Notes: generated by a model not told the origin, from the sequence alone. A stretch of DNA of 64,000 nt from Natronosalvus caseinilyticus (GCF_017357105.1 NZ_CP071596.1:868001-932000), one strand, 5' to 3'; shown: positions 39,239-47,722, numbered from the stretch's first letter. Made by a program: numbers and translations.

Positions 39239-41053
39239 TCAGGGCGCGTAGTAGTACTCGCCCTCGCGCTTCTGTTGCCGGTCGAGCTGGGAGTCCGGCT
39301 TGTTGATCCGCGGGCGCGAGGTCCGCTCGTCCCGGCGGAACGTCACCTCGAGGTTCGCCAGGAACTCGTTCATGCCGCCGCGCATCGACTGGGGCGTCCC
39401 CGCGCGGCCGTGGACGGCCGGTTCGCCGTCGAAGACCATCAGGCGGTCGGCCAGCAGGTCGATCATGTAGATGTCGTGGTCGATGACCAGGACGGTGGCG
39501 TCCTGCTGTTCGGCGTAGCGCCGGATCGCCCGCGTGGCCTGAACTCGCTGTTCGACGTCGAGGTGGGCCGAGGGCTCGTCGAGCAGGTACAGATCCGCGG
39601 TATCGGAGAGGCAGGCCGCGATGGCAACTCGCTGGCGCTCCCCGCCCGAGAGGTCCGAGAGGCTCTGCTCCATGATCCGCTCGAGCTGGAGCGGACCCGC
39701 GATTTCGGTGTTCCAGTACGAGGAGCCGAACTGGTCGGTGATCGAAGCGAGGAACGCGTCGACGCGCATCGGCTGGTCGATGGTGACGTACTGTGGTTTG
39801 TACGAGATGTCGAGATCTAACTCGGCTTCACCTTCGTCGGGCTCGAGCGCACCGGTCAACAGCTTCGCGAAGGTCGACTTCCCGATGCCGTTCGGGCCGA
39901 CGACGCCGAGGACCTCGTTCTTCCGAATTTCGCCGCCCTCGACCTCGAGGGAGAACTCGCCGTCGCCGTAGGACTTGACGAGGTCGGGGTACTCGACGAG
40001 GGTGTCCCCGCGGGTGGCGCTTCGGGGGGCATGTTCCTCGAACTCGATCGGGTTCGGGCGAATCCGCATGTTCTCGTTCTCGAGGTAGCCCGCGAGGTAC
40101 TCGTTGATGCCGTTGCGGACCGACTTGGGCGTCGTGATGACACCGTAGGCGCCGGGCTCACCGTAGGCGACGTGGAGGGTGTCGGCGAGCAAGTCGAGGA
40201 CGGCGAGGTCGTGTTCGACCACGAGCATCGACTTCCCTTCCTCCTCCGCGAGTTCGCGGATCAGACGGGCCGCGGTGACCCGCTGGCCGATGTCGAGGTA
40301 GGGCGTGATCTCGTCGAGGAAATAGAAGTCGGTGTCGCGAGCGAGCGTCGCCGCGAGCGCCACGCGCTGGAGTTCGCCACCCGACAGATCGTCGATCGAC
40401 TGGTCCATCACTGGACCGATCGATAGCCGTTCGACCAGCGAGTCGAGGGCGTCGCGCTCGTTCGTCCGCTCGAGCAGTTCGCGAGTGTTTCCGTCGAACT
40501 GGTTCGGAATCTGGTCGACGTACTGGGGTTTTCGCGCCACCGAGAGGTCGCCGTCGCGGACGGCCTCGAGGTAGTCCTGGATCTCGGTGCCGCGGTAGGC
40601 CTCGAGCACGTCGTCCCAGCCCGGTGGCTCGTCGAAGCGCCCGAGATTTGGCTCGAGTTCGCCGGCCAGGATGCGAACGGCGGTGGTCTTCCCGATGCCG
40701 TTTGGTCCGAGGATGCCGGTTACCCTCCCCTCCTGTGGCGCCGGGAGGCCGTACAGCGAGAAGGCGTTCTCGCCGTAGCGGTGGGCAGGGTCGTCCTGGA
40801 GTTCCTGTGGCAGGTTGATGATCTCGATGGCGTCGAAGGGGCACTTCTCGACGCAGATGCCGCAGGTTTCGCCCAGACAGATCTCCTCGGAGATGCGAAT
40901 CTGTTCGGGTTGGCCCTCGTCGGCCTCTTCGCCACGGAGCGTGATGCACTCCTTGCCGGTGCGGTTGGGCGGGCAGTAGTTCTTGCACTCGTAGTTACAC
41001 CGGTCGGGCTGGCACCGATCGAGGTCGACGACGGCGATGCTGTCTTTGGCCAT
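39239..41053 (-). CDS. abce1: ribosome recycling ATPase ABCE1 (Rli1)
   Basis: A 604-residue twin-ATPase with two N-terminal iron-sulfur clusters. The cysteines are in RCQPDRCNYECKNYC and CLGETCGICVEKC, with CP following. The first ATPase has Walker A GPNGIGKTT, signature LSGGELQR and YFLDEITPYLD. The second has GPNGIGKST, LSGGERQR and YLLDEPSAHLD. It splits post-termination ribosomes with aRF1/aPelota and takes part in initiation. The length and all motifs are complete. It follows the EMC6-like gene with a 1-base gap, so they form an operon. Confidence 0.97.
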   Translation of the reverse strand: MAKDSIAVVDLDRCQPDRCNYECKNYCPPNRTGKECITLRGEEADEGQPEQIRISEEICLGETCGICVEKCPFDAIEIINLPQELQDDPAHRYGENAFSLYGLPAPQEGRVTGILGPNGIGKTTAVRILAGELEPNLGRFDEPPGWDDVLEAYRGTEIQDYLEAVRDGDLSVARKPQYVDQIPNQFDGNTRELLERTNERDALDSLVERLSIGPVMDQSIDDLSGGELQRVALAATLARDTDFYFLDEITPYLDIGQRVTAARLIRELAEEEGKSMLVVEHDLAVLDLLADTLHVAYGEPGAYGVITTPKSVRNGINEYLAGYLENENMRIRPNPIEFEEHAPRSATRGDTLVEYPDLVKSYGDGEFSLEVEGGEIRKNEVLGVVGPNGIGKSTFAKLLTGALEPDEGEAELDLDISYKPQYVTIDQPMRVDAFLASITDQFGSSYWNTEIAGPLQLERIMEQSLSDLSGGERQRVAIAACLSDTADLYLLDEPSAHLDVEQRVQATRAIRRYAEQQDATVLVIDHDIYMIDLLADRLMVFDGEPAVHGRAGTPQSMRGGMNEFLANLEVTFRRDERTSRPRINKPDSQLDRQQKREGEYYYAP

Positions 41054-41054
41054 G

Positions 41055-41378
41055 TTAGAAGCTCGCGCCGGTGCTCAGCATGATTCCCCAGGTGATGAAC
41101 CAGAACGAGAAGGTCATCAACCCGATGAACAGCACGTGTTTGGGTCCGAACTCCTCGCTATCGTAGAGGCCGGTCGCGGGCAGGGCGATGACCTGCAGGG
41201 CGATCAGCCCGAAGACGAGGAGGTAGGTGAGCGGTTCGGTCGCCGCGGCGTCGACGGCTTCCCCGGCGGTGAGGATCGAGGAGCCGATGGCGGCGCCAAC
41301 CCCGGCGAGACAGGCGAACGCTGTCACGCCGATCGAGCGAATGTGCTCGCGTCGATCGCTCATCGTTGCGGTTGACAT
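41055..41378 (-). CDS. EMC6-like membrane protein
   Basis: A 107-residue protein with three membrane segments (VTAFACLAGVGAAIGSSIL, LTYLLVFGLIALQVIALPAT and HVLFIGLMTFSFWFITWGIML). The EFGPKHVLFIGLMTFSFWFITW segment is like the archaeal EMC6 relatives, members of the Oxa1/EMC insertase assemblies. It is directly upstream of abce1. Coupling to a ribosome recycling factor fits a role near membrane translation, which is inference. The start is ATG 41378 (MSTATMSDR); ATG 41363 is an alternative. Confidence 0.8.
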   Translation of the reverse strand: MSTATMSDRREHIRSIGVTAFACLAGVGAAIGSSILTAGEAVDAAATEPLTYLLVFGLIALQVIALPATGLYDSEEFGPKHVLFIGLMTFSFWFITWGIMLSTGASF

Positions 41379-41511
41379 ACTACTGAGTCTGTGTCGGGCG
41401 TTCAAAAGCCGTTCGCATTGTCCGGGCGCTGTACCACGTGTAAGCGTTGAATCTCGGATAGCAATTTGCCACTCGAGATTTGTTGGCCTCGAGGATGAGT
41501 GCCCGCGTCGA

Positions 41512-42441
41512 TTATGGCCCACAGGCCGTCGAATCGTCGTCACAGGAGATTGTGACAGTTATGCTGTCGGATCCGCCTTTCTTGTCATGGAATGTCATCT
41601 CTATCTCCGCATTGTCCATCGAGACCTCCTCGCCGTTCTCGTCAACGAACGCGTCGATCGTCACGGTGGCGAGATCACCCGTTCCGAGGTCCACTCGCTT
41701 CCCCTTTCCGTTCCCGAACTCGACGTTCTGATCTCCGATCTCCCAGGGGCTGGCGGATGCCGTTTCTGTATTATCGGCCCCGCCATCGACAATCACCTCT
41801 CCAGCTTGATTCCCTTGCGAAATCTCGGTCGCCGACGTCGATGCCCTCGTAACCGAGACTTCCGTAATCTCGATTTTACCACCAGTATTATTGAGCGTAA
41901 ACTCGACGACGCCTCCCTGCACGGAATCGACGCTGGTGACCTCAAGCCCCGGCGGATCAGTGTTCCCGCCGCCGCGACAGTTCACGTCGATTTCCGCGCC
42001 TGTGGTTCGCTCCAAGTCGACAGTCACGCTGCTCGAGGCCGTCAGTTGCACGGTGAGCGTTCCCGGATCCTTGAGATTTGACGTTCCGCACGTTACGACG
42101 ACGGCGTAGTCACCGTTGGTGCCGTCGGTTTGGACATTCGCCTCGAGGCCCGTCTCTTGGCCGTTGAACTTGATGTCGTTGACAGTCACATCGTTAACGT
42201 CGAACAGTCCAGCGTTATCGTCGATGTAGAAGACTTCGCCCCGCTGATTATTCGATGGGACAACGTCTGCGCTCCCCGCAGCCGAGTTATCGATGACACC
42301 AAGTAACCCGTTCGGGTCTGTAGCTGTGCTCACGGAGACGCCGCGATCTGCGCTGATCGTCGTGAATCCGAAGACCGGTCCAGCCAGTAATACCGTGCCG
42401 ACGACCACGAGAACGACCGCGAGTTTTCCGATCCCGTTCAT
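41512..42441 (-). CDS. secreted DUF1102/TasA-like surface protein
   Basis: A 309-residue protein with a signal peptide at residues 1-25 (GKLAVVLVVVGTVLLAGPVF). The mature start GFTTISADRGVSVSTATDP followed by NGLLGV parallels GAFSTVEASRTVNVSTADDE followed by NALLRF of the DUF1102 protein encoded at 43304. The rest is beta-rich, Thr/Asp/Asn-rich and has four cysteines (VVVTCGTS, VNCRGG, ISCDDDSTACGP), probably disulfides. I infer a filament or surface-layer accessory protein. It lies 2 bases after the DUF7344 membrane regulator gene on the same strand. Confidence 0.78.
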   Translation of the reverse strand: MNGIGKLAVVLVVVGTVLLAGPVFGFTTISADRGVSVSTATDPNGLLGVIDNSAAGSADVVPSNNQRGEVFYIDDNAGLFDVNDVTVNDIKFNGQETGLEANVQTDGTNGDYAVVVTCGTSNLKDPGTLTVQLTASSSVTVDLERTTGAEIDVNCRGGGNTDPPGLEVTSVDSVQGGVVEFTLNNTGGKIEITEVSVTRASTSATEISQGNQAGEVIVDGGADNTETASASPWEIGDQNVEFGNGKGKRVDLGTGDLATVTIDAFVDENGEEVSMDNAEIEMTFHDKKGGSDSITVTISCDDDSTACGP

Positions 42442-42443
42442 GG

Positions 42444-43028
42444 CTATTGCGGGCGTTCCCCTTCACCCAGGCGGTTTTGTCGATTCTCCAGGACGTGCAC
42501 CACCGCCGACACGGCGAACAGCCCCACGACGGCCGTGGCCCATCCCAGTGTCGACACTGTCTCGACGGGAACGACCTCGAGCCAGAGCCCGACCATCACC
42601 GCGGCGGCGACCGCCGAGAGGCCGAGGTAGTAGACGCCCCAGGGGATCGAATCGCCGGGAACGATGTCCAGGTAGACCTCGAGTTGCTCGGCTTCCTCGG
42701 TAAGTTCGATCGCTCGAGCGTCGAACTCGACCATTCCCGCGCGCTCGAGCGCCAGAAGGTGCGTCTGCTGGAGCGACGTGTACACACGCTTGCGCTCAGT
42801 GGATGTGAGTCCTTGCACCTCCTTCTCGAGTTCCCAGGCGGCAACCTGTTCGGCCAGGGCTCCGAGTTCGACGGGTTCGTCGGTCTGCTTGAGGTGGTGG
42901 ATGGCGTACCGTCGACGGTGATTGCTCAGGAGGTCGAAAATTTCGCCTCGAGTGGGGCCGGCGGCATTCCTGTCGCTCTCGGCCGTCCCAGCGTCGTTCT
43001 CGCCTACCTGCTCGGTAATCGTCGCCAT
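42444..43028 (-). CDS. membrane-anchored DUF7344 winged-helix regulator
   Basis: A 194-residue protein. Residues about 28-115 form a winged helix (IFDLLSNHRRRYAIHHLKQT, then SLQQTHLLALERAGMVEFD) of the DUF7344 type. Two membrane helices follow at about 130-180 (GVYYLGLSAVAAAVMVGLWL, LGWATAVVGLFAVSAVVHVL). A DNA-binding domain tethered to the membrane next to surface-protein genes suggests it senses the envelope or filament state and regulates this locus. It is divergent from the DUF1102 operon and co-transcribed with the 41512 gene. Confidence 0.82.
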   Translation of the reverse strand: MATITEQVGENDAGTAESDRNAAGPTRGEIFDLLSNHRRRYAIHHLKQTDEPVELGALAEQVAAWELEKEVQGLTSTERKRVYTSLQQTHLLALERAGMVEFDARAIELTEEAEQLEVYLDIVPGDSIPWGVYYLGLSAVAAAVMVGLWLEVVPVETVSTLGWATAVVGLFAVSAVVHVLENRQNRLGEGERPQ

Positions 43029-43106
43029 TGGTCCCCCCGAAATCTATCTAGGATTACTGAACTATGCCTACATAACGTTTGTTGCCGTCGCGTGTAGATC
43101 TAACAC

Positions 43107-43129
43107 GAGTGTGTTTTTAACTCACACAC
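43107..43129. promoter_or_regulatory. perfect dyad around a TATA-like element in the divergent promoter
   Basis: AGTGTGT (43107-43113) and ACACACT (43123-43129) are exact inverted repeats separated by nine bases containing TTTTAA. The element sits in the 275-base spacer between the DUF7344 regulator gene and the DUF1102 operon. A factor bound here would cover the TATA-like element. Transcription from it to the right would give a ~160-base leader before 43304. Confidence 0.5.
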
Positions 43130-43232
43130 TTTCCCTCAGACGGCTGATTTCGGCCGATCAAGCCCGTCTTGAAGCCCCGATTGGTGGGCCAGAACTGCTT
43201 CTGGAGACCTAATACAAAGGGGGTAGCCTCGA

Positions 43233-43306
43233 GTGAAGGAGGTGATGATCACGTCGGTATCCGGTGCCTACGGTGCCGGCGCGGATCGAACGGAGACCAT
43301 ACAATG
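43233..43306 (+). CDS. candidate short leader ORF overlapping the DUF1102 start
   Basis: A GTG at 43233 or ATG at 43245 opens a frame ending MITSVSGAYGAGADRTETIQ, with its TGA sharing bases with the ATG at 43304 (ATGA). The sequence AAGGAGGTGATGATC at 43236-43250 is close to a full complement of the 16S rRNA 3' end. It is only two bases from ATG 43245, which is too close for a normal start, so it could instead serve re-initiation or be chance. Two other genes of the same operon show similar stop-start overlaps. Coding status is uncertain. Confidence 0.35.
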
Positions 43307-43858
43307 AGACTCAACAGACGCAACGTGCTTGTCGGACTGGGAACGATCGTAGCTGGCGGCGGCGGCGCACTCGCGACGGGTGCGTTTAGTACCGTTGAAG
43401 CGAGTCGTACTGTTAATGTCAGCACTGCTGACGACGAGAATGCACTCCTTCGATTTAAAGTAGATGAATCATATGGAGGAATTATTGATAACGGGGGTAA
43501 CGTAATGCAAATTGATCTTCAGGACCTGAATGAAAACGCTGTCACGTCATTTGATGACGTATTAACTATTGGGAACGCAGGGAGCAACGATGTAGAGATA
43601 ACTATCAATAATCATGGTACTGCCGAAGGCGTCGTTTTTTACACAGGTTCGTGGAACGGCTCGGATTCAATTTCGGCTTATGGTGATGATCATACAATAA
43701 TCGCCGGAGATACAGATCTTGCTGGTGCAACTAATTCGGAACTTCAGTTAGGGATCGCTATCAATACAAATAGCGACAACCCCGGCGATTGGGGCGGGGC
43801 CGTTTCCAATTTAGCCAGTGTAGATATCACGATTAAGGCAAATTCCGTGTCTGCTTAG
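43304..43858 (+). CDS. DUF1102 (TasA/bundling-pilin-like) secreted protein
   Basis: A 184-residue protein. The N-terminus MRLNRRNVLVGLGTIVAGGG has a twin arginine and a hydrophobic stretch ending ALATGA. The mature part begins FSTVEASRTVNVSTADDE and is a beta-sandwich-like domain with motifs VMQIDLQDLNENAVTSFDDV, LTIGNAGSNDVEITI and VVFYTGSW. This is the usual form of haloarchaeal DUF1102 proteins. From about 43430 on, codon use is unusually AT-rich for the window. I infer that it is the major subunit of an extracellular filament processed by the signal peptidase encoded downstream. Confidence 0.82.
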   Translation: MRLNRRNVLVGLGTIVAGGGGALATGAFSTVEASRTVNVSTADDENALLRFKVDESYGGIIDNGGNVMQIDLQDLNENAVTSFDDVLTIGNAGSNDVEITINNHGTAEGVVFYTGSWNGSDSISAYGDDHTIIAGDTDLAGATNSELQLGIAINTNSDNPGDWGGAVSNLASVDITIKANSVSA

Positions 43859-43895
43859 ATCCAGTCTCATTCAAAGGATATGTTTTCAGATTACG

Positions 43896-43911
43896 CCCGG
43901 TAGAAACCGGG
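43896..43911 (+). promoter_or_regulatory. stem-loop after the DUF1102 gene
   Basis: CCCGGT-AGAA-ACCGGG forms a perfect 6-bp stem with a four-base loop, 37 bases after the stop of the first DUF1102 gene and before the second at 43979. No T-run follows. It may stabilise or attenuate the transcript so that the first gene is expressed more strongly than the rest; this is inference. Confidence 0.4.
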
Positions 43912-43978
43912 AATTAGTGTGTGGCCGAATTCAGTGTTCAACCATCTCAAACACATCTGAAGATCTATTGTAATTATA

Positions 43979-45097
43979 ATGAAATATGCCTTCGTGATGG
44001 TTACGGCGCTCGCCCTCACCTTAGCCGTGCCGACAGCTGCAGTCACTCTCGAGGACGACACCTCCAACACAATTGTTCTCGAGGCCTCGAGTCCCTACGC
44101 CACCACCGAAAACGGCCAGCTCGAACTCGACTTCGAGCGACTCAATGCGGACGCGGTAACGACGGTCGACGAGGCCTTCACCGTACGCGCCATCGACGAG
44201 GACGTCGATCACATCTGGCTCTCGGGCACCGACGGCGTCACCTTCTACCGAAACGGCGACCCTGGAGACGAGATAACCGCGAAATCGCCGCTCGAACCAG
44301 CCACCGGCCAGTCGATTGCCGTCGGCGTCTCTATCGACACTCACCAGGCGGGGGAGGGAACGGAGTCGTTCACGATCCACGTGCGGTACGACGATGACGA
44401 GGACGACGAAACCGACCCCGACCCGCCGACGCTCGAGCGTGTCATCGTCTCGGACACCGAGGTAACCGTCGGCGAGACGATCACGGTCACGGGTATCTAC
44501 CGGGGCGGATCGCAGTCGATGGCGACGATGGTCGGGTTGACCGTCGATGACATCGTCGTCAGCCAGAAACGGGTGTTCGTCTTCGGCGGCGAGAACCGGT
44601 CCGTCTCCTTCGAGCGGACGATGGACGCCCCCGGCACGTACGAGGTCGGCATCGACGGCCGGACGCACACGGTGACGGTCACCAATCCCGAACCCGAACC
44701 GGGCGAATCGGTGCCGAATATGACGGTGACGGGGATCGACCTCGACCGGACCGAGGTCGCAATCGGGGAGTCAGTGTCGGTCACGGCGACCGTCGAGAAC
44801 ACGGGCAACGCGACGGGGGTACGAACCCTCGAGTTCGCCGTCGGCGGCTTCGTCGTCGAGACGGAGCGGGTCGAACTCGCACCCGGCGAGACGCGACAGG
44901 TCGAGTTCGAGCGATCGTTCGCCGACCCCGGCCGCTACGCGCTGGCGCTCGAGGGCGAGGCGGTGGGTACCGTCACGGTCATCGGACTGCCGGCGATTGC
45001 GGCGGTCACGGCCGCGCTTCCCTCACGGTCGACGGCGGCGCTCGCGCTCCCGATTGCCCTGGGCGTCGGGTTCGTCGTCCGGCGGCGGCGAACGTGA
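43979..45097 (+). CDS. DUF1102 protein with CARDB-like repeats and C-terminal anchor
   Basis: A 372-residue surface protein. The signal peptide is residues 1-20 (MKYAFVMVTALALTLAVPTA). A DUF1102-like domain occupies about 25-150 (ENGQLELDFERLNADAVTTV, EDVDHIWLSGTDGVTFYRN). Two Ig/CARDB-type beta domains follow at about 155-235 and 248-330 (VTVGETITVTGIY, VAIGESVSVTATVENTGNA). The C-terminal membrane helix is ALALPIALGVGFVV with RRRRT after it. It is probably an anchor or adaptor for the filament encoded next to it. Confidence 0.8.
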   Translation: MKYAFVMVTALALTLAVPTAAVTLEDDTSNTIVLEASSPYATTENGQLELDFERLNADAVTTVDEAFTVRAIDEDVDHIWLSGTDGVTFYRNGDPGDEITAKSPLEPATGQSIAVGVSIDTHQAGEGTESFTIHVRYDDDEDDETDPDPPTLERVIVSDTEVTVGETITVTGIYRGGSQSMATMVGLTVDDIVVSQKRVFVFGGENRSVSFERTMDAPGTYEVGIDGRTHTVTVTNPEPEPGESVPNMTVTGIDLDRTEVAIGESVSVTATVENTGNATGVRTLEFAVGGFVVETERVELAPGETRQVEFERSFADPGRYALALEGEAVGTVTVIGLPAIAAVTAALPSRSTAALALPIALGVGFVVRRRRT

Positions 45098-45098
45098 G

Positions 45099-45197
45099 AT
45101 GAGTACCGACCGGAGACGAGCAGTTAAGACGATTCGAATGCGAGACAGGGAAAACACGACCGTGCCAGGAGCGAACTCGAGGGAGCGACGACGATGA
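45099..45197 (+). CDS. candidate 32-residue ORF coupled to the signal peptidase gene
   Basis: ATG 45099 opens MSTDRRRAVKTIRMRDREN, ending GANSRERRR. It starts one base after the upstream stop, and its TGA overlaps the signal peptidase ATG (ATGA). The product is strongly basic, unlike normal haloarchaeal proteins, so it may function only in translational coupling, or it may bind nucleic acid. No family is known to me. Confidence 0.35.
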   Translation: MSTDRRRAVKTIRMRDRENTTVPGANSRERRR

Positions 45198-46363
45198 ACG
45201 GGGCGTCGATAGCGAAGCAGGTCGCGATGGGGCTGGTGGGCCTCGTCGTGGTACTGCTGGTTCTCGGCCAGGTGCTGGGCCAGCCGATCCTGCTCGGCTA
45301 CGTCGCGACGGGGAGCATGGGGCCGACGCTTGCCGCCGGGGATGGGTTCGTCGCGGTCCCCAGCGCGGTGACCGACGCGCCCGAACCCGGCGACGTCGTC
45401 GTCTTCGAGGCCGAGACGTTACACGGGGGCGGGCTCACCACCCATCGAATCGTCGCCGAGACCGACGAGGGGTACGTGACGCGGGGCGACGCCAACCCGT
45501 TCACCGACCAGGATGGGGGCGAGCCGCCGGTCACCGAGGGGAAGATCGTCGCCGAGGCCTGGCAGATCGGGGGGTCGGTCGTCCGGGTCCCGCACCTGGG
45601 AACCGTCATCATGAGCGTCCAGGGACTCGTCGGGGCCGTCTTCGGTCTCCTGGCGGCGCCGCTCGGAATCACGGCAGCTTTCGACGCCGAGGGGACCGGC
45701 GCCCTGCTGGTAGCCCTCGGGGTCGGCCTGCTTGGGGTCGGCTTGCTGCTCGAGCGCGTCGGCGTCGCCGAGCGGCGGACGGCGCGACGAACCAGCCGCG
45801 AGAACGTGATCGGGCTCTGGTCGGCGCTGTCGGCCGTCGTCGTCGTGCTCGCCCTCTTCGCGACGGCGGCGATGGTGATCCCGGCCGGTGGAACCGCCTA
45901 CGAACTCGTGAGCACCGACTCGCCGACCGACGACCCACAGATCGTCGCTCCCGGAGAGACGACGACGCTCACGCGAACGATCGACAACAGTGGCTACGTC
46001 CCGGTCGTCGTCGTGCTCGACGCGCCACACCCCGCCGTCGACGCCGAGCCGCGGGCGACGACGGTCGGTAGTCGCGACACGGCCGAGGTCGCGCTCTCGA
46101 TGACGGCGCCGGAGACGACGGGGAGTTACACCCGCGACGTCGTCGAGAGTCGGTACCTCCTCGTCTTGCCACCGACGCTGCTCGTCTGGCTCCACGACCT
46201 CCACCCGTTCGTGGCCATCGGTGCGGTCAACGTCGTGATCGTCGCCGTCGCCGTCGGTCTGGTGTTCGCCCTCTTCGGCACCGGCGACCTTCGGATACGG
46301 ACGCCCGGCTCGCATCTCCCGCTCTCGACGCGACTCGAGCGCCTGCTCGAGAAGTGGCTGTGA
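45194..46363 (+). CDS. type I signal peptidase (SipW-like, S26B)
   Basis: A 389-residue membrane peptidase. After an N-terminal helix (VGLVVVLLVLGQVLG) comes the catalytic Ser41 in ATGSMGPTL. His84 is in LTTHRIVAET, in place of the bacterial Lys as in archaeal and ER-type enzymes. The Asp of TRGDANP is Asp99. The C-terminal ~200 residues add several membrane helices and a beta domain (PGETTTLTRTIDNSGYVPVV). It removes signal peptides from exported proteins. Its place among DUF1102 genes suggests it is dedicated to them, as SipW is for TasA. Confidence 0.9.
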   Translation: MNGASIAKQVAMGLVGLVVVLLVLGQVLGQPILLGYVATGSMGPTLAAGDGFVAVPSAVTDAPEPGDVVVFEAETLHGGGLTTHRIVAETDEGYVTRGDANPFTDQDGGEPPVTEGKIVAEAWQIGGSVVRVPHLGTVIMSVQGLVGAVFGLLAAPLGITAAFDAEGTGALLVALGVGLLGVGLLLERVGVAERRTARRTSRENVIGLWSALSAVVVVLALFATAAMVIPAGGTAYELVSTDSPTDDPQIVAPGETTTLTRTIDNSGYVPVVVVLDAPHPAVDAEPRATTVGSRDTAEVALSMTAPETTGSYTRDVVESRYLLVLPPTLLVWLHDLHPFVAIGAVNVVIVAVAVGLVFALFGTGDLRIRTPGSHLPLSTRLERLLEKWL

Positions 46364-46415
46364 GCGCTATCATCCGCTCAGACCAACCGATCGACGGCCA
46401 CTACTGTTATAGTCG

Positions 46416-46565
46416 ATGAACGACGACCTATCGTATCGCGTGACTTTCCGCACCGTGTTAGATGGGGGGTTGGCCGACGGCGAGTCACAGCCAGCGGTGC
46501 GGCCAGACGGGATTGACGGGATTGACGGAATCGACGGAACCAACGAGAGAGAGGGGACACCGTGA
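46416..46565 (+). CDS. candidate 49-residue ORF coupled to the DUF5305 gene
   Basis: ATG 46416 encodes MNDDLSYRVTFRTVLDGGLA and a short tail containing GIDGIDGID before TNEREGTP. Its TGA overlaps the DUF5305 GTG (GTGA at 46562-46565). The acidic composition is normal for the host. The GID repeat arises from a GGGATTGAC-type 9-bp tandem at about 46510-46537. It is the most protein-like of the three short ORFs in this operon, but the family is not recognised. Confidence 0.5.
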   Translation: MNDDLSYRVTFRTVLDGGLADGESQPAVRPDGIDGIDGIDGTNEREGTP

Positions 46566-47722
46566 CGAACACGCCGCGACTCGACCTGCTGATCGCCAGA
46601 TCCGGCCGGCCGATCCTGATTGCGTTGCTCGTGATCGGCACGATCGCCTTGCTCGCGACCGGCTGGGTCGTCGCGAACCCGTCGACGACGACGACCACCC
46701 AGGAAGTCGATCATCAGACGGTCTCGACGCAGGTCGGTACGGAAGCCGTAGTCGTCCAGGACGGCCTCTGGGAGGCCGGCACCGTGCTCGAGGACAACCC
46801 TGCGTACGTGATAAACGCCTCACCGGAACTCGAGATCGTCGCCGAGACGGCGGTCCCGAGCGACGAGACGAGTCTCGAGCACGAGATCGTCCTCAGGTAC
46901 GCAGCCTCGCGCAACGACGAGGTGTTCTGGGAGTCAGAACGCGTGCTGGCGGCCGAGGAACCGACGATTACGGACGGGCAGGGCGTCACCAGAGCGTCGG
47001 TCGACGTCCGGGAGGTCCAGGACCGGCGTGAGGAACTCAGGACTCGCCTCGACGGGGTCGGTACGGTCGACATCTCGCTGATCATCCGTACGAGTTACGA
47101 TACGGGGACGCACGTCGGCGAACACGCCCCGTCAACCCCGTTCGTCGTCACCGAACGGAGCTACTACCTCGAGGACCATCCCGAAGAGTCGGACCCGAAC
47201 CCGGTCACCCAGACCGTCGAGACGACTGACCCACCTAGTTCCGCGCTGATCGGCACCCTCCTGATCCTCACGGTGGGGTCGTTCGGCGGGGCCGCGTTCG
47301 TCAACTCCCGCTCCGACGTCGATGTCGACCGGGCGCGCCAGGCGATTCACGAGAATCGCTACGCGGAGTGGATCTCACGGGGCTCGCTGCCGATGTGGAT
47401 CGGCGACGAACACGTCTCGCTCGACACGCTCGAGGACGTCGTCGACGTCGCCATCGACACGAACGAGCGCGTGATCCACGACCGGAGTCGCGGCCTGTTT
47501 GCGGTCGTCAGCGACGGCGTCGTCTATTACTACAGCGACCGCGGGCTCTGGGAAGAGACGGCGTGGCCGGACTTCGACCTCGAGGAGCGGCCGACTCCGG
47601 GCGACGTGATCTCGTCCGGTGACGGCGACGGACCGGCGACTCAAACGGGCGATAGCGGACCGAAGCCGCCGTTCGAGGACTTGCCGGACCCCGAGGACGA
47701 CGACGCCTGGAACAATTTGTAA
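46562..47722 (+). CDS. DUF5305 membrane protein
   Basis: A 386-residue protein starting with GTG. There is one membrane helix near the N-terminus (PILIALLVIGTIALLATGWV), then an extracytoplasmic beta-rich region with the DUF5305-type segment (NASPELEIVAET, DISLIIRTSYDTG, RSYYLEDHP). A second helix lies at about 226-245 (ALIGTLLILTVGSFGGAAFV). A cytoplasmic tail containing AEWISRGSLP and ERVIHDRSRGLFAVVSDGVVYYY completes it. DUF5305 proteins are usually encoded beside DUF1102 and signal peptidase genes, so a role in filament assembly or anchoring is likely. Confidence 0.85.
   Translation: MTNTPRLDLLIARSGRPILIALLVIGTIALLATGWVVANPSTTTTTQEVDHQTVSTQVGTEAVVVQDGLWEAGTVLEDNPAYVINASPELEIVAETAVPSDETSLEHEIVLRYAASRNDEVFWESERVLAAEEPTITDGQGVTRASVDVREVQDRREELRTRLDGVGTVDISLIIRTSYDTGTHVGEHAPSTPFVVTERSYYLEDHPEESDPNPVTQTVETTDPPSSALIGTLLILTVGSFGGAAFVNSRSDVDVDRARQAIHENRYAEWISRGSLPMWIGDEHVSLDTLEDVVDVAIDTNERVIHDRSRGLFAVVSDGVVYYYSDRGLWEETAWPDFDLEERPTPGDVISSGDGDGPATQTGDSGPKPPFEDLPDPEDDDAWNNL

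Follow-up and report, generated by a model that had tools for sequence, protein, structure and literature searches.

A cluster of genes for secreted and membrane proteins in the haloarchaeon Natronosalvus caseinilyticus raises the question of what these proteins could assemble at the cell surface and, if the product is a filament, how its two ends would be told apart. The cluster lies at positions 41512-47722 of the window, by which we mean the whole 64,000-nucleotide stretch that was analyzed (GCF_017357105.1 NZ_CP071596.1:868001-932000), counted from its first base. We propose, at a probability of about 0.68, that the locus builds a thin filament on the cell surface through donor-strand complementation, in which a repeating pilin would be bounded by a donor-only cap and an acceptor-only anchor. 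That a filament is built at all is well supported by the homology of its pilin to the solved pilin of a locus with matching gene order. An initial annotation of this DNA had suggested a filament like those of TasA or the archaeal bundling pili; a donor-strand filament agrees with the findings described below, but the nearest known system is the Tat-fimbria rather than TasA.

Kinship with the haloarchaeal taf clusters

The locus consists of two divergent operons, as first annotated, and the gene positions agree with that placement. Its genes, referred to here by their first coordinate, are:

43304-43858, plus strand: pilin (TafE-like), 184 amino acids; twin-arginine (Tat) signal peptide MRLNRRNVLVGLGT, a predicted donor-strand segment at the N-terminus and a beta-sandwich domain
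43979-45097, plus strand: TafF-position protein, 372 amino acids; signal peptide, pilin-type domain, two CARDB/immunoglobulin (Ig) domains and a C-terminal membrane anchor
45194-46363, plus strand: signal peptidase I of the archaeal/SipW (endoplasmic reticulum, ER) type, 389 amino acids; five hydrophobic segments plus one Ig-like domain outside the cytoplasm
46562-47722, plus strand: DUF5305 membrane protein, 386 amino acids; PF17231 at an expectation value (E) of 8e-48, two membrane helices
42444-43028, minus strand: DUF7344 winged-helix regulator in the TafB position; PF24035 at E 9e-27, C-terminal membrane segments
41512-42441, minus strand: TafC-position protein, 309 amino acids; Sec-type signal, mature N-terminus FTTISADRGVSVSTATDPNGLL, then Ig-like domains

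The plus-strand operon carries its four genes in the order given, and in the minus-strand operon 42444-43028 comes first and is followed by 41512-42441 across a gap of 2 bases.

The evidence for a filament begins with Protein Data Bank chain 9p0a_C (named 'Pilin', three chains per entry), to which the window pilin is homologous at E 1e-16 and the pilin family profile at E 7e-27, the latter match spanning the whole mature length. This chain is 100% identical over 213 aligned residues to the pilin of a Natrinema gari locus (L160), whose order is that of the window: a TafC-position gene and a DUF7344 gene are divergent from the pilin, and the TafF-position gene, peptidase and DUF5305 genes accompany it. 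The N. gari locus likewise has a single pilin and a Sec-type homologue of 41512, although the overall identity of the two aligned pilins is just 35%, with the greatest differences in their C-terminal halves.

The signal of 43304 is of the twin-arginine type, a point that the earlier account had overlooked, with NRRNVLVGLGT inside the peptide listed above; that of 41512 has no RR pair. The RR pair, R5 and R6, is invariant in 34 homologues, as are GAF, A33 and R35, and the mature protein is predicted to start at AFSTVEA. The pilins of related loci are, with almost no exceptions, Tat substrates. This places the locus beside the haloarchaeal Tat-fimbriae ('tafi') of Galeva et al. (2025, iScience 28:111793, as cited in PMC12687288). 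Like tafi, the window combines a Tat-exported pilin with a DUF7344 gene, a TafC-position gene, a signal peptidase, a TafF-position gene and a DUF5305 gene. Unlike them, it has one TafE-like pilin and no TafA, its TafC-position protein carries a Sec-type rather than a Tat signal, and its proteins fall below the equivalog cut-offs or have no match.

Those cut-offs were taken from the June 2026 release of NCBIfam, which includes the fimbrial families TafA, TafC, TafE and TafF. The 43304 product matches TafE (NF052522) at E 1.6e-27 with 96 bits, under the cut-off of 155 bits, and the 9p0a pilin itself scores 78 bits against the same family. The 41512 product resembles TafC weakly and at its N-terminus only (20.6 bits, E 2e-4; cut-off 410 bits), and no window protein matches TafF (cut-off 420 bits). 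A search of the genome for TafA (NF052520, cut-off 190 bits) found none, the best score being 42.5 bits to the TafE-like gene. Since none of the four cut-offs is reached, the most fitting description of the locus is that of a divergent taf variant, and, since no TafA occurs elsewhere in the genome, 43304 has no rival as a candidate for a pilin of this sort. A canonical TafA-bearing cluster (L077) has genuine TafE, TafA, TafC and TafF in the corresponding positions together with DUF7344, signal peptidase and DUF5305 genes, and among related loci, TafA-bearing ones included, the pilin keeps DUF7344 in 39 of 41, the peptidase in 40 of 41 and DUF5305 in 37 of 41. The window locus is a TafA-less, single-pilin relative of the haloarchaeal taf cluster.

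The NCBIfam title of TafE, 'fimbrial adapter', bears on what 43304 does. It could be a TafE-type adapter or minor subunit of a filament whose main pilin is another, unrecognized protein, with 41512 and 43979 as ordinary minor pilins lacking the polarity proposed here, and the presence of TafA as well as TafE in canonical clusters favors this possibility. We consider it unlikely, however, given the lack of TafA in the genome, the single pilin-type gene in 45 of 79 related loci and the fact that the sole solved structure, 9p0a, is a 'Pilin' from a single-pilin locus.

Two observations on other loci of this kind are recorded here. A contig titled 'Mollicutes bacterium' (L138, PULR01000059.1) has three Tat pilins in a taf-type locus of haloarchaeal character and is probably a mislabelled or contaminated assembly. 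Proteins of 650-1250 amino acids whose N-terminus resembles that of type IV pilins (DRGVSPIVGITLLFGMV) stand beside pilin genes at L078:10808-13882, L084:2202-5321, L086:1403-5152 and L099:10442-13723; the window has none.

Division of donor strand and pilin domain among the secreted proteins

Three secreted proteins of the locus had been said to share a mature N-terminal pattern. This is true of 43304 and 41512, whose profiles align at E 9e-9 (hhalign) within a region confined to residues 1-29, but not of 43979, which has the rest of the pilin domain instead: its match to the pilin profile (hhalign E 1.5e-13) begins at about pilin position 16 or 21 and runs through to the end, and the start is absent. 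The isolated pilin-type domain of 43979 (residues about 25-140) matches at E 5e-16 in a comparison run with controls. The control domain pairs gave hhalign probabilities of at most 6%, most of them below 1%; the exceptions were the pairing of the two Ig repeats and that of the peptidase ectodomain with these repeats.

Separate profiles for the donor piece and the domain piece were searched in 8,923 reading frames, with matches accepted up to E 0.01. The donor piece was found in 185 of 206 pilins, in 40 of 114 members of the 41512 family and in no other frames, the 8,074 unlabelled ones giving 0 matches. The domain piece was found in 167/206 pilins and 63/68 members of the 43979 family, in 1/114 of the 41512 family, in 14/28 other-length relatives of the 43979 family and in 15/8,074 unlabelled frames. 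When duplicates were removed, 148 of 186 unique pilins carried both modules; the unique 43979 family had the domain alone in 59 of 61 and the donor strand in 0 of 61, and the unique 41512 family had the strand alone in 45 of 101 and the domain in 1 of 101. These profile searches show that the modules divide, the pilin having strand and domain, 43979 the domain only and 41512 the strand only.

A comparable division is known from TasA and TapA. In TasA the mature protein begins with the donor strand, residues 28-38, and fibers are impaired when this strand is deleted (PMC9674648); the AFHDI of TapA, which has a complete Ig domain and is donor-only, mimics the AFNDI of TasA (PMC10151520). The haloarchaeal AFSTV of the pilin and FTTIS of 41512 parallel this pair. 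The rule that one subunit's strand would insert into the next is supported by sequence and by this analogy, and not by a structure.

An AlphaFold2 (AF2) model of the mature pilin, made with 58 homologues, is almost entirely beta, at a predicted local distance difference test score (pLDDT) of 71 and a predicted template modeling score of 0.65. In a fold search of 350,542 chains, its first rank was AbpA of Pyrobaculum calidifontis (7ueg, E 0.025) and its second a thread of Sulfolobus acidocaldarius (7pnb, E 0.037), both with a template modeling score of about 0.38. The ranking of two archaeal donor-strand filaments as first and second is suggestive, while such scores by themselves are no proof. 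Neither 9p0a nor TasA was among the 50 best fold matches of this model, so that, of the two structures with which the pilin was to be compared, AbpA emerged as best neighbor with weak scores and TasA was absent from those matches. A Pfam scan of the window pilin gave nothing significant; DUF1102 was matched in 7 of 58 homologues.

These neighbors resemble the window in different respects. AbpA forms a donor-strand complemented filament (PMC9715654) and lacks a sequence match to the pilin. The S. acidocaldarius threads (Saci_0406) also use donor-strand complementation but come from another kind of locus, and the accessible portion of their published account mentions no Tat signal or dedicated peptidase. 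The Bacillus TasA-TapA-SipW system has in common with the window a SipW-like peptidase, a mature N-terminus of the form AF(N/S)-I/V and a helper with a complete Ig domain, donor-only in Bacillus and predicted to be so in the window. In contrast to it, the window pilin is Tat-exported, the TasA/M73 family PF12389 has 0 matches in the genome (the B. subtilis control was positive), TasA is missing from the fold matches listed, and the window adds a membrane-anchored, putatively acceptor-only protein, DUF5305 and DUF7344.

The same proteins could instead form a secreted TasA-like matrix or an S-layer-associated system, with soluble or anchored beta-sandwich proteins on the envelope or in the biofilm matrix and no ordered filaments. 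The Ig-rich, anchored 43979 and the Ig domains of 41512 would suit such a system, as would the lack of a direct image of filaments from N. caseinilyticus. The identity of an orthologue to a solved pilin, the fimbrial family names and the partition of the strand module all argue against it, and we regard it as quite improbable.

Proposed anchor, cap and direction of assembly

Beyond the gene content, synteny, homology and two-module partition shown above, we infer that 43304 polymerizes by strand exchange and that the filament has a polarity in which its partners play distinct roles. The pilin would be exported by Tat, and a cut at about G|AF by 45194, the signal peptidase in the membrane, would release the strand AFSTVEASRTV..., which would enter the beta-sandwich groove of the next pilin. 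The 43979 protein, a pilin domain on a membrane-held Ig stalk, could only accept, since it has no strand of its own, and would form the base of the filament. The 41512 protein, in which the strand is followed by an Ig-like domain that is complete and by C-terminal domains that vary, could only donate, since it lacks the pilin domain, and would start or cap the far end; it would be a cap comparable to B. subtilis TapA and may be an adhesin. DUF5305 would be an accessory membrane assembly factor, and the DUF7344 protein would control the pilin operon.

The proposed anchor had been annotated as a DUF1102 protein with Ig-like repeats and a C-terminal anchor. The repeats (CARDB E 1e-8) and the anchor (transmembrane segment 329-347) are present, but DUF1102 was rejected as its identity, its match being marginal only. 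The anchor recurs on the 43979 homologues of related loci. A membrane-held pilin domain able to accept the last strand, as predicted for 43979, is not described for TasA in PMC9674648 or PMC10151520.

For 41512, the AF2 model has low confidence at residues 1-10 and no strand in residues 1-20, followed by a first Ig-like domain with a pLDDT of about 93; such an arm before a well-modeled domain is as expected of a TapA-like donor. A fold search with this model returned mainly two-domain Ig-like adhesins, with a template modeling score of about 0.2, which we do not use as evidence of adhesion. The signal of the TafC-position protein is of the Tat type in Haloarcula and Haloferax, whereas the window and most single-pilin loci of its family have one of the Sec type, a comparison that is uncorrected for genome kinship and in which four entries were misparsed or left unclassified by the pattern. 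Separately, the profile of bactofilin, a polymer-forming cytoskeletal protein, matches 9 of 34 secreted 41512 homologues (best E 4e-24) and LamG matches two. The bactofilin match would place a beta-solenoid like that of bactofilin outside the cell, as part of a pilus protein; L130, L169 and L177 are examples of long 41512 homologues, not individually checked.

The polarity could also be the reverse: 41512 would then lie at the cell surface, the place proposed for TapA, and 43979 would be attached in some other way, perhaps as a platform for assembly that holds pilins before their release. TapA has indeed been described as an anchoring and assembly protein of TasA (PMC10151520), and the hydrophobic N-terminus of 41512 is of the Sec type in this lineage. 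However, the clear C-terminal membrane anchor of 43979, in the window as in related loci, and the variable C-terminal domains of 41512 homologues (LamG, bactofilin-like), which would suit a distal adhesin, make this arrangement unlikely, and we retain 43979 as the predicted base and 41512 as the predicted cap.

The remaining membrane proteins agree with their initial annotation. The 45194 product matches TIGR02228 at E 9e-13 and the SipW family NF046067 at E 3e-7; at 30 bits against the SipW cut-off of 190 bits, it is related to SipW but not an equivalog. Ser41, His84, Asp99 and Asp105 are invariant in 89 orthologues, which fits the Ser-His-Asp arrangement typical of ER/SipW-type signal peptidases. 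Its extracytoplasmic domain (45875-46207) resembles the CARDB/Ig stalk repeats of 43979 (hhalign 87-90%), a likeness that hints that both may contact one partner. A pilin-like domain, which would be a sign of a chaperone, was sought in the peptidase ectodomain and in DUF5305 and rejected for both (hhalign below 1%). The ectodomain of 46562 is bracketed by membrane helices, one on each side, in keeping with the double-pass protein first described, and the winged-helix protein 42444 is tethered, as claimed, by its C-terminal hydrophobic segments.

Several points weigh against the proposed filament. No filament has been seen from N. caseinilyticus, and 9p0a is identified as a pilin by its sequence identity and its molecule name. 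The pilin model is of moderate confidence and its fold matches are non-significant by E-value. The title given to TafE is that of an adapter, not of a main subunit. Finally, the 41512 family includes 55 proteins, out of 101, in which the donor segment escapes detection, and 'acceptor' is our label for a homologous domain with a putative groove.

Candidate pilin promoter, genomic setting and meaning

The divergent promoter region holds two further elements, through the first of which the DUF7344 protein would probably act:

43157-43173, plus strand: palindromic candidate operator aTCAAGcccgtCTTGAA, with one mismatch against TTCAAGN5CTTGAA
43211-43219, plus strand: AATACAAAG, a candidate for the core element of the promoter, about 37-38 bases past the palindrome

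The pair occurs as a single copy in the 4.2 Mb genome, in which a reversed control pattern had 0 matches. An exact AATACAAAG lies upstream of 68 of 187 related pilins and in 0 of 187 shuffled regions; among the cluster's other gene families it precedes 0-1 genes in most, and 10 of 87 in the 43979 family. Of the 187 related pilin genes, 37 have the palindrome upstream, and in 33 of the 68 it precedes AATACAAAG, always at a spacing of 37-38 or 58 bases. The palindrome may be a DUF7344 operator and AATACAAAG a TATA-like core element. A 20-codon frame (MITSVSGAYGAGADRTETIQ) at 43245-43307 follows a strong GGAGGTGA and shares bases with the start codon of the pilin (ATGA); considered as a regulatory leader, it is kept only in the closest relative (L095) and not further.

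Around the locus lie genes for an ATP-binding cassette ATPase (39239-41053) and an EMC6 homologue (41055-41543), a small helix-turn-helix gene and a membrane gene. These are common to about half of related loci, so that the taf-type locus looks like a resident one rather than an island. The longest frame of the EMC6-type gene begins within the end of the 41512 gene, and its true start is probably further downstream.

A broader proposal, to which we give slightly less than even odds, is that this pilus family, widespread among haloarchaea, sets the polarity and ends of its filaments by module subtraction, that the cap moved from Tat to Sec export in the single-pilin lineage, and that the palindrome/AATACAAAG promoter is under the membrane-tethered DUF7344 regulator.

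In summary, the filament type has already been described and the locus is a divergent variant of it with an assembly rule open to testing. It is of interest for that rule and for how broadly the single-pilin form is distributed, rather than as a new category. The module rule would give a simple, testable account of how a filament is started, grown and anchored without an outer-membrane usher and would tie haloarchaeal pili to TasA biofilm fibers, and the promoter element would offer a handle on the timing of pilus production. Among 394 genomes of the class, TafA occurs above its cut-off in 24 and relatives of the window pilin in 200 (65 of 86 genera); TafE-like pilins, in about half of these genomes, are therefore far commoner than TafA proper, and loci with a single pilin may represent the usual form.

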